Positions 10,659 through 40,340 of a stretch of 42,849 bases of DNA are shown here, piece after piece. Origin of the DNA: Sedimentisphaerales bacterium (GTDB lineage Bacteria; Planctomycetota; Phycisphaerae; Sedimentisphaerales; Anaerobacaceae). The notes under the pieces were generated by a model that saw only the letters and a list, made by a program, of their open reading frames with translations, did not search any database and was not told where the DNA came from. The stretch covers positions 1 through 42,849 of the forward strand of contig JAUVXL010000006.1 of the NCBI GenBank assembly GCA_030603595.1, in the 5' to 3' direction. Numbering within the stretch: the stretch's first letter is position 1; each line of letters begins with the position of its first letter. A program made the position numbers and the translations under genes.

Positions 10659-11771
10659 ATGGTAAGGAAATTGACGAGCAAAGATGTTAGGCGATGGTTT
10701 CGGGTTTACGGCGGCAGAGTTGCGACGACGGTGTCGCTGCTGGCTCTCTGCGTGGTATTGTCATCATGTGGGGGTACTGCCGGCGCGGGAGCAGGTCCGG
10801 TGGTCAAGGACTTCAAGGCCGAGGCCGAAGAAGCGATTACGGGGCTGGACCCGGCTATGGGGGACTGGCAGGGCGGCTGGAAGCTGAACGATGGGAGCGA
10901 TTCGGGGCCGTTGGTTGCGCAGGTGATAGCTTTGGGCAAGGGTGAATATAAGGCGAATTTCCTCGAAGTATTCGATACGCGAATGGAGCCGATAGGGATA
11001 CTCGTCGGCCGGCTCGAAGACGAAGCGGTTCAACTCGCAGGAAGGGCGTATCACAGCGGCATAGACTTCAACGTCGAGGCTAAGATCGAAGGGGGCAAGC
11101 TTACGGGCACCTTCGCAGGGCAGGATGTTGACGGGACTTTTACGCTCAATCGAGTGTTCCGCGTTTCCGAGACGATGGGGGCGAAACCTCCCAAGGGGGC
11201 GGTTGTGCTCTTTAACGGGAAGAACTTCAAGAATTGGAAGCGTGCGAACGCGAAGGAAGGCGAAGATGATTCGGTTCGGTGGGAGCTTGTGGACGGTGCG
11301 ATGCGCGCCAAGCCGGGCGCCGGATCGATTATATCGAGGAAGGAATTCACGAACGTGGCGGTGCATGTAGAGTTTCGCAGCCCATTTATGCCGAGTGCCC
11401 GCGGTCAGGGCCGGGGCAACAGCGGGGTGTACCTGCAGGGCAGATACGAGGTTCAGGTGCTGGATAGTTACGGCCTGAAGGGCGAGAGCAACGAATGCGG
11501 GGGGATATACAAAGTCAGCGCTCCACGGGTGAATATGTGCGCTCCTCCGGGTCAGTGGCAGACCTACGATATTACGTTCCGGGCGGCTACGGCGAACAGC
11601 AAGCCGACTCTGACCGTGCTGCACAACGCTGTGATGATTCAAGATGGAACGGAAGTCGGCGGGACGACGACTGCGGGAATGGGCGGCAAGGCGTCGGAGC
11701 CTGCGGGGCTATATCTGCAGGACCACGGTAACGCGGTTGAGTATCGCAATATTTGGTTGGTCGAGCAGTGA
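10659..11771 (+). CDS. DUF1080 (3-keto-disaccharide hydrolase) lipoprotein
   Basis: ATG 10659 follows GGAGA (10645-10649) and gives a 370-residue lipoprotein: a basic N-region, hydrophobic core and lipobox LSSC at Cys37. A longer in-frame start at 10581 would overlap the HEAT gene and bury the signal, so it is rejected. Residues about 50-165 form a beta-rich module of unknown type (DWQGGWKLNDG, VGRLEDEAVQLAG, GTFAGQDVDGTFTLNRV). From about 182 to the end is DUF1080, with VLFNGKNFKNW, GRGNSGVYLQGRYEVQVLDS, PGQWQTYDITFRA and a terminal HGNAVEYRNIWLV. It resembles the DUF1080 half of the first gene. Predicted role: cleavage of 3-keto-glycosides at the membrane surface. Confidence 0.88.
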   Translation: MVRKLTSKDVRRWFRVYGGRVATTVSLLALCVVLSSCGGTAGAGAGPVVKDFKAEAEEAITGLDPAMGDWQGGWKLNDGSDSGPLVAQVIALGKGEYKANFLEVFDTRMEPIGILVGRLEDEAVQLAGRAYHSGIDFNVEAKIEGGKLTGTFAGQDVDGTFTLNRVFRVSETMGAKPPKGAVVLFNGKNFKNWKRANAKEGEDDSVRWELVDGAMRAKPGAGSIISRKEFTNVAVHVEFRSPFMPSARGQGRGNSGVYLQGRYEVQVLDSYGLKGESNECGGIYKVSAPRVNMCAPPGQWQTYDITFRAATANSKPTLTVLHNAVMIQDGTEVGGTTTAGMGGKASEPAGLYLQDHGNAVEYRNIWLVEQ

Positions 11772-38834: not shown

Positions 38835-40340
38835 GTGGAAAAAAGACACATGGGCAGAACATTCAGCGCCGCTTATATACTCTTGGTCCTGTTGCTTGCC
38901 GTATGCAAGCAGTTGTCACCTCTGGCTACGACCAGGGGCCCAGAGAGAAAGCAGTTGTCACCCCTGGCTACGACCAGGGGTCCAGAGAGAAAGCAGTTGT
39001 CACCCCTGGCTACGACCAGGGGTCCAGAGAGAGCGGAGGAATGGATTCCCGCTTTCGCGGCAATGACATGCGGGGCGGCAATGACACAAGGCCAGTGCCC
39101 AAACGCCGAGTCCGATTGTCCGGCAGGTTCTTCGCAAAGCCGCGAGCTTCCGGAACGCCCCGGCAAGTCCCGTAAGGGACGCCTTGCGGCTGCGAAGATG
39201 TCTCGAAGAAACTGCACAGGCCCTGGAGGAGAGGAGCCTGCGCCGGCGGATATCGACGAAGTGTTAATAGGCTATTTTGGCCCTGCAGATCCCTGTCATG
39301 TCCAGGGGGGCGGCATGTGGTGTGCGGCGTCTCTGGCAATTGAGCAGGCCAATCTTTCAGGGGGATACAAAGGCCTGCCGTTCCGTCTGGTTCACGGTTG
39401 GTCGGATAACCCGTGGGGCTCCGGCGTCAAGCAGGTAGTCCGCATGGCCTACGTGGACAAGGTCTGGGCCGTCATCGGAGGAATCGACGGATCCTCGACC
39501 CATTTGGCCGAGCAGGTGGTCGCCAAGGCTCGGCTAACTTTGATAAGCCCCGGAAGCACCGATAGAACGGCGAATCTCGCCAATGTCCCGTGGATGTTTT
39601 CATGCCTGCCTGGCGACAATCTTCAGACGTGCGTTCTCGCCCAGGCAATAGAGGCACACGTTCAAAGAAAGCCGTTTCTGCTTGTCTCGGCCGTGGACCA
39701 CGATTCGCACATTTTCGCGGTCGAATTGACCAAGTCATTGGCCCGAAAACAAATGGTTCCGGCTTATCATTTCGAGTTTAGGCCCGACGAAAAGAACCTT
39801 GCGGACCTCGTGCAGAAAGTCATAAACACTCAGACCGATGCTGTCGTTTTAATCGCCGGCTCACAACAAAGCGCACGGCTGACCTCTGCCATGCGAGAAA
39901 GTGGCTTTCAAGGGCTAATCTTTGGCGGACCGACTATGGGCCAACGCGATTTCACGAAGAAAGCAGGCAATGCCGCTGAAGGAGCGATTTTCCCTTTGCT
40001 TTATGCCCCCGGCGGGACCTCGGAGGATTTTGAGCGGACATTCACCGCACGATTTGGAAATCGCCCAGACTACCTCGCCGCACACACCTATGACGTCGTC
40101 AACCTTCTGGTTGCGGCCATACGCAAAGCCGGCCTGAATCGCACCCGCATACGCGATGCGGTAAAAGAACTTTCCGGGTGGCAGGGCGTGGCAGGGCCGA
40201 TACTGTGGGATTCGAGGGGAAGCAATTCAAGGCCGATTGTCTTGGGAACAGTAACTTCGGGCCAACTGAAACAACTCTCTCAGATTGAACGGGACCCTGA
40301 ATCGTTCATTTCCTCCGGATTTCTGAACTGCCTTCAGTAA
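38835..40340 (+). CDS. Substrate-binding lipoprotein, paralogue 2, with repeat-built linker
   Basis: GTG 38835 lies ten bases after the preceding stop; ATG 38850 is an alternative. The signal (SAAYILLVLLLAVC) ends at Cys24, a poor but plausible lipobox (Val at -1). Directly after it come three copies of the 14-residue unit KQLSPLATTRGPER (residues 25-66), then peptide EEWIPAFAAMT from another palindromic repeat, then a third palindromic stretch. The Peripla_BP_6 domain starts near 141 (DEVLIGYFGP) and runs to the end: CAASLAIEQANLSGGYKGLPFRLV, WAVIGGIDGSSTHLAEQVVAKARL and AAHTYDVVNLLVAAIRKAGLNRTRIRD. It is paralogous to the preceding gene but its linker is entirely repeat DNA. The 3' end overlaps the convergent gene by 35 bases. 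Confidence 0.85.
   Translation: MEKRHMGRTFSAAYILLVLLLAVCKQLSPLATTRGPERKQLSPLATTRGPERKQLSPLATTRGPERAEEWIPAFAAMTCGAAMTQGQCPNAESDCPAGSSQSRELPERPGKSRKGRLAAAKMSRRNCTGPGGEEPAPADIDEVLIGYFGPADPCHVQGGGMWCAASLAIEQANLSGGYKGLPFRLVHGWSDNPWGSGVKQVVRMAYVDKVWAVIGGIDGSSTHLAEQVVAKARLTLISPGSTDRTANLANVPWMFSCLPGDNLQTCVLAQAIEAHVQRKPFLLVSAVDHDSHIFAVELTKSLARKQMVPAYHFEFRPDEKNLADLVQKVINTQTDAVVLIAGSQQSARLTSAMRESGFQGLIFGGPTMGQRDFTKKAGNAAEGAIFPLLYAPGGTSEDFERTFTARFGNRPDYLAAHTYDVVNLLVAAIRKAGLNRTRIRDAVKELSGWQGVAGPILWDSRGSNSRPIVLGTVTSGQLKQLSQIERDPESFISSGFLNCLQ
38909..39034. repeat. Three tandem 42-base hairpin repeats in coding sequence
   Basis: Copies begin at 38909, 38951 and 38993, each exactly 42 bases. Each contains CCCCTGG-CTACGA-CCAGGGG (the first copy has CCTCTGG), a 7-base stem. 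The period is divisible by three, so the reading frame of the lipoprotein stays open and gives a 14-residue repeat. Copy 3 diverges after GAGAGA. Confidence 0.9.
39042..39068. repeat. GGATTCCCGC palindromic repeat, copy 3
   Basis: TGGATTCCCGC (39042-39052) with GCGGCAATGACA (39057-39068) matches the intergenic copies at 13245 and 14700 apart from one base. Here it is inside a coding sequence and read as EEWIPAFAAMT. Confidence 0.8.
39129..39198. repeat. Long imperfect palindrome in coding sequence
   Basis: TCTTCGCAAAGCCGCGAG (39129-39146) is largely complementary to CTTGCGGCTGCGAAGA (39183-39198). A central hairpin GTCCC-GTAA-GGGAC lies at 39167-39180. It directly follows the other repeats and completes the replacement of the linker of the binding lipoprotein. 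Confidence 0.6.

Follow-up and report, generated by a model that had tools for sequence, protein, structure and literature searches.

A gene for a periplasmic substrate-binding protein in the window (the whole stretch of 42,849 nt that was analysed, from an uncultured planctomycete) very probably carries a REP/BIME-type element, inserted in frame between its signal peptide and its linker. The anatomy of this segment (Table 1), its repeated parts, the absence of the array from orthologues, the open reading frame and the homology of the signal peptide and domain on either side of it are direct observations. Intragenic REPs are already known in other bacteria, and the array described here is a new and unusually clear instance of them.

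Anatomy of the array and its host protein

The host gene is the second member of a tandem pair of Peripla_BP_6 genes, the same synteny being found in G001, G018, G024, G026, G028 and G029, and its score of 116 bits against PF13458 (curated cut-off 31.7) places its product in that family. The frame is open from 38835 (GTG) or 38850 (ATG) to 40340, and the repeats begin at 38907, i.e. in codon 25 when counted from the GTG, as a preliminary description of this DNA had reported. That description was also right about the three in-frame 42-base hairpin repeats (spacing 42 and 42, identity 95-100%, two copies being identical at the DNA level), about a single GGATTCCCGC palindrome of the type found between genes in the source genome, about the lack of any stop codon across the repeats, and about the ordinary linker of the adjacent paralogue (84 residues claimed, ~85 by our count). 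Its three kinds of palindrome stand as units, but are better described as two orientations of one REP architecture together with a separate palindrome.

Table 1. Features of the host gene, its upstream neighbour and the inserted segment (positions in the window)
Feature	Position	Strand	Basis
Upstream paralogue, Peripla_BP_6, uninterrupted linker of ~85 residues	37355..38824	+	Pfam PF13458 E 9e-39, ORF
Host gene, periplasmic substrate-binding protein (Peripla_BP_6), 496 aa from ATG	38850..40340	+	Pfam PF13458 E 3.4e-33
Signal peptide MGRTFSAAYILLVLLLAVC, homologous to orthologues, e.g. MHRIFTAASILLALSFVVW	38850..38906	+	Alignment
Three tandem 42-bp units (KQLSPLATTRGPER x3)	38907..39032	+	Repeat search; 6 genome copies; absent from 60 relatives
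TGTC...CCA hairpins in the 42-bp units	38914-38942, 38956-38984, 38998-39026	+	Repeat search
REP of opposite orientation with a TGTC tag (TGTCATTGCCGCGAAAGCGGGAATCCA) and a single mismatch in its stem; GGATTCCCGC...GCGGCAATGACA palindrome	39042..39068	-	Genome comparison
Decayed half unit of REP type (CGGCAATGACA), resembling the tails of other genome arrays	39069..39087	-	Comparison with C245 and C197 arrays
Rest of the inserted segment; right boundary inferred from alignment only	39088..39120	+	Alignment
Probable native-linker remnant (AGSSQSRELPERPG vs AGDTYPRERPSRK)	39121..39164	+	Alignment, weak
Third palindrome AAGTCCCGTAAGGGACGCCTTGCGG (KSRKGRLA), a separate small family	39165..39189	+	Genome copies
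Native linker and first strand (SRRNCTGPGGEEPAPADIDEVLIGYFGP), matching ARKHQTNYAGPGREKRPPTDIKEVLIGYFGP	39190..39302	+	Alignment
Peripla_BP_6 domain	39303..40259	+	Pfam match, residues 152-470

The earlier estimate of about 290 inserted bases proved too high. The net gain relative to orthologues is 78 codons (234 bp), since in the alignment the native linker accounts for part of 39121-39234, and the foreign DNA comes to ~214 bp plus the separate small palindrome. The stretch 39088-39120 has no repeat match elsewhere in the source genome, and no Rfam family matches anywhere in the window. The open frame alone is the weaker evidence, since the 42-bp unit is free of stops in all three forward frames and shuffled sequence of the array's composition is open in 4.5% of cases over 292 bp (8.5% over 214 bp). 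Nor is hairpin energy alone the argument, since the array gives only modest folding z-scores (-1.4 and -1.6).

In a PROSITE-type lipobox pattern, A, G or S stands at -1 before the cysteine. The host gene had been taken to encode a lipoprotein, and this part of the description we do not uphold: its candidate lipobox, LLAVC, has Val at -1 and fails the pattern, a lipobox is present in only 3 of 16 orthologues (13 are without one), and the host protein is probably not a lipoprotein. The LAGSC of the paralogue fits the pattern by inspection. The pN/pS values of the host gene against five orthologues (0.28-0.34; ~0.29 for the downstream domain) follow a purifying pattern, although as an average over a long divergence they are no proof of function after the insertion. 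AlphaFold, run on the whole protein with a three-sequence alignment, gave a mean pLDDT of 41 and was confident for no more than the signal helix and a portion of the domain; because this model is poor, the low pLDDT of the linker was left out as evidence of disorder.

Orthologues and genomic copies of the repeats

The host gene or a close relative was found in 17 of the 161 genomes of the order. Neither the array nor its peptide is present in any of the other 16 orthologues. From the Met to GYFGP there are 62 residues in six orthologues (that of the congener G001 among them), 54-65 in four further ones and 140 in the host gene. In an alignment of the host protein with two named Phycisphaerae/Planctomycetota records, the only orthologues that a scan of named genomes yielded, the break falls directly after the signal peptide (between ...VLLLAVC and AG...), and the native linker and domain resume downstream. 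The signal peptide and linker are shared by the congener and by members of other genera, in which the repeats are missing; comparison with the congener at the DNA level does not resolve the linker. With 62 residues against 140, and a congener that has no array, the host gene is a clean before-and-after case of intergenic hairpin DNA becoming protein sequence, a kind of capture that is little described in this phylum.

Two orthologues contain unrelated palindromes of the form CCTTCGAC...CTCAGG, inside this N-terminal segment or close to it. In G026 (L065) a CCTTCGACAAGCTCAGG element, whose motif occurs 14 times in that genome, lies behind the signal peptide; in G018 (L013) CCTTCGACTTCGCTCAGG and a larger palindrome come just past GYFGP, the motif having 111 genomic copies there.

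The 29-bp core of the 42-bp unit, searched with at most 3 mismatches, occurs six times in the source genome (three copies in the window, one on contig C197 and two on C245), with no match in a reversed-pattern control or in 60 related genomes. The composite of the last 42-bp unit and the GGATTCC unit at 39042-39068 is found again on C245 and C197, where 86-89% of positions are identical across 90 bp. Both kinds of unit have a TGTC tag and a CCA tail, as CGTC-type REPs do, the 42-bp unit being laid out as TGTC-ACCCCTGG-CTACGA-CCAGGGGT-CCA and the unit at 39042-39068, on the minus strand, as TGTC-ATTGCCGC-GAAA-GCGGGAAT-CCA. The latter fits the CGTC stem and loop consensus as well, with one mismatch in the stem. 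The 42-bp subtype, with its six-base loop, is called here REP-like, of the same architecture, because its stem start and loop length depart from that consensus.

The high copy number and mainly intergenic position typical of CGTC-type REPs are found here too, the 42-bp subtype itself having only six copies. In ~1 Mb of the source genome, read as stretches that were partly picked for repeat hits (one or two clusters being counted doubly at overlaps), there were ~136 REP matches in ~75 clusters, against 0 in the reversed sequence. Coding genes were called by a codon-usage score on both flanks; two of the ~75 clusters (those in the host gene and in a ParB_N gene on C245) lie in frame in such genes and ~73 lie outside a coding frame, a proportion that is an estimate because of the way the stretches were picked. 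Strict REPs number 194 in the source genome (G000), 22 in the congener G001 and 0 in G002, all within one genus, and 0 in all reversed controls. Near the ParB_N gene (locus L039 on C245), a GIY-YIG nuclease gene at 11063-11350 has 42-bp-type hairpins at 11361-11389 and 11007-11035. From this single case an association of GIY-YIG genes with REPs is possible; we found no literature on the two together.

Where REPs lie within genes, all three sense frames and antisense readings are represented: LSPLATTRGP and, in antisense, EEWIPAFAAMT in the window, VTPAKAGVQ and MDSCLRRND in the ParB_N gene of the source genome, and CHSCESRNP in the ParB_N gene of G029. Because the frames differ, selection does not appear to act on a peptide, and these readings point to the DNA, not a peptide, as the unit that is conserved and spreads. 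There is a warning in this for annotators: a captured repeat can lie behind a peptide such as WIPAFAGMT or CHSCESRNP in a genuine protein.

Elsewhere in the source genome there are five more copies of the third palindrome (at most 3 mismatches). They are mostly inside ORFs, including, in frame, a POTRA/Omp85 protein, where the palindrome stands ahead of the signal peptide (L214, C24), and a PilZ protein (L213, C2), as well as a DUF3352 protein. It is also found in frame in an HI0933-like flavoprotein (G001, L240), a sulfatase (G036, L231) and an Mfd-like protein with UvrB_inter, CarD_TRCF_RID and helicase domains (G007, L217), and some copies look intergenic. It behaves as a separate, small family that is tolerated in genes.

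Origin of the array and competing explanations

The order of events that we infer begins with the insertion of a REP/BIME-type pair, two oppositely oriented hairpins each with a TGTC tag and a CCA tail, where signal peptide and linker meet. Tandem duplication of the 42-bp half would then have given three copies. Such growth cannot disturb the reading frame, 42 being a multiple of three and the unit stop-free in every forward frame. A second, unrelated small palindrome would have inserted slightly downstream. If translated, the product would consist of the signal peptide, a linker that exceeds those of close orthologues by 78 residues, and a normal binding domain. The array may persist because the linker tolerates length changes; insertions that shift the frame, or that fall in folded regions, would be lost. 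Neutrality and actual translation are, like this order, presumed, and so is the route of mobilisation, which could have been a Y1-type transposase acting in trans or replication slippage. The source genome has six Y1-transposase loci; in the stretches read no REP flanks them, none being closer than ~1.4 kb. A dedicated RAYT beside the REPs was also looked for, and none was seen in those stretches.

The insert does fall at the cleavage region of the signal peptide, and one may ask whether the array destroyed that region, leaving a recent pseudogene or a protein that is no longer exported, whose frame is open by chance. The chance openness given above is not negligible. On the other hand, the net gain is a whole number of codons, the signal helix and the complete domain are both preserved with no stop, and with the third palindrome the gene has received a further in-frame insertion, so that both events had to keep the frame; we regard a pseudogene as unlikely. 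The mostly intergenic position of REPs in this genome would likewise suit an array that is a 5' regulatory or intergenic element, with translation starting 3' of the repeats, and in-frame ATGs are available near 39063, 39081 and 39198. However, a periplasmic binding protein would then be without a signal peptide, whereas the upstream peptide MGRTFSAAYILLVLLLAV is homologous to the signal peptides of orthologues from other genera and lies in the expected place. Given this conservation of the signal peptide upstream of the array, a downstream start is very improbable.

No greater probability attaches to the idea that the repeats were selected as a feature of the protein (a spacer or surface-binding repeat). 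It could draw on the three near-identical 14-residue repeats, two of them from identical DNA, but such identity is explained by recent duplication, the same DNA is found outside genes (C197, C245), other proteins contain related REPs in different frames, and the peptide occurs in no orthologue. Misassembly is a real hazard in a repeat-rich MAG of 361 contigs and 86% completeness, since repeats cause mis-joins, and the tandem copy number may be affected. Yet on both sides the contig shows the conserved order, paralogue before host gene, that six relatives also have, and the frame is kept across every junction, which makes an artefact a slight prospect. In-frame insertion of a REP/BIME-type element is the reading that we prefer.

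Recurrence in ParB_N genes and relation to known repeats

The ParB_N gene of the source genome (L039:12244-13308, C245) contains an in-frame REP array of ~130 residues near its C-terminus, with native sequence on both sides; the array splits two parts that can be aligned with an uninterrupted relative in G001. Among 31 relatives, the loop from YEPLIVR to FQIINGHH has 8 residues in most and 19-40 in seven (G015, G096, G036, G029, G034, G009 and G021; 25-40 in the first six, L188-L193). The inserts include a REP (G029: TTGTCATTCCTGCGAAAGCAGGAATCCA), REPs that contain additional nested DNA (G036, G009) and other palindromes (G034, G015). The C-terminal loop has REP arrays in G000 and G015 and a different palindrome set in G011 (fold z -7.1). 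In-frame palindromic inserts are thus found at the same two loops in several genera, the fraction of genes with inserts being no rate because the genomes were partly picked for split matches. The ParB_N tree is too poorly resolved to count independent insertions, and the three REP inserts at the first loop (site 1) may have one origin. No literature on palindromes with ParB was found.

The preliminary description had proposed that surface linkers act as tolerant landing sites. In-frame palindromes in a tolerant linker agree with this, but the restriction to the surface does not hold, as inserts are also found in cytoplasmic ParB_N loops, the Mfd-like protein, the flavoprotein and the sulfatase. 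That particular loops in this planctomycete family (the two in ParB_N and the N-terminal segment of the host gene) are recurrent landing sites, receiving unrelated palindrome families independently and in frame, is a proposition on which we are evenly divided. If true, palindrome capture would be a regular route of protein length evolution and no rare accident. The ParB_N series offers orthologous loops with and without inserts in which the tolerance of folded proteins and the number of captures could be measured, and the recurrence at the same loops across genera is the part most worth following.

CGTC-type REPs (CGTC-1 to CGTC-4; Di Nocera, De Gregorio and Rocco 2013, PMC3733652) have a CGTC tag, often TGTC, a stem of 8-9 bp that almost always starts AT, a loop of 4-5 and a CCA tail, and are without a dedicated transposase. 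Their superfamily includes Neisseria dRS3 and R. conorii RPE-4 and RPE-6, Planctomycetes are among the carriers of REPs, and the clusters found in genes encode 43 to 82 residues (PMC3733652). The REPs described here are similar in their TGTC tag, 8-bp stem, CCA tail, high copy number and opposite-orientation dimers, in being mostly intergenic with some in frame inside genes, and in that no dedicated transposase was seen. They differ in that the stem of the 42-bp unit starts AC instead of AT, in its six-base loop and head-to-tail triplication, and in the ~130 residues of the ParB_N array, which exceed the known range.

The likeness to Rickettsia palindromic elements put forward earlier is more than superficial. 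RPE-4 and RPE-6 share the CGTC REP layout, and, as with RPEs, palindromic DNA lies in frame in unrelated genes (the host gene and the ParB_N gene) with intact proteins predicted. However, RPEs, as summarised in PMC3733652 and PMC10969869 (citing Ogata et al. 2000, 2002), are ~150 bp long, code for one conserved peptide and are located for the most part within genes, whereas the REPs of the source genome are short, are read in several frames with no one conserved peptide or preferred frame, and are overwhelmingly intergenic, with only ~2/75 sampled clusters in genes. With RAYT-associated GTAG REPs and REPINs (PMC3116915, PMC2817692) they have in common that they are short, paired, dispersed hairpins and presumably non-autonomous mobile DNA, but they have no GTAG tag, and no REP-flanked Y1 transposase was seen in the stretches read. 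The recB genes of X. campestris and X. oryzae have REPs at about the same site (PMC3733652), which resembles the ParB_N case in that orthologous genes of different species are affected at the same site; in ParB_N, unlike recB, two loops, several genera and clearly different palindrome families are involved.
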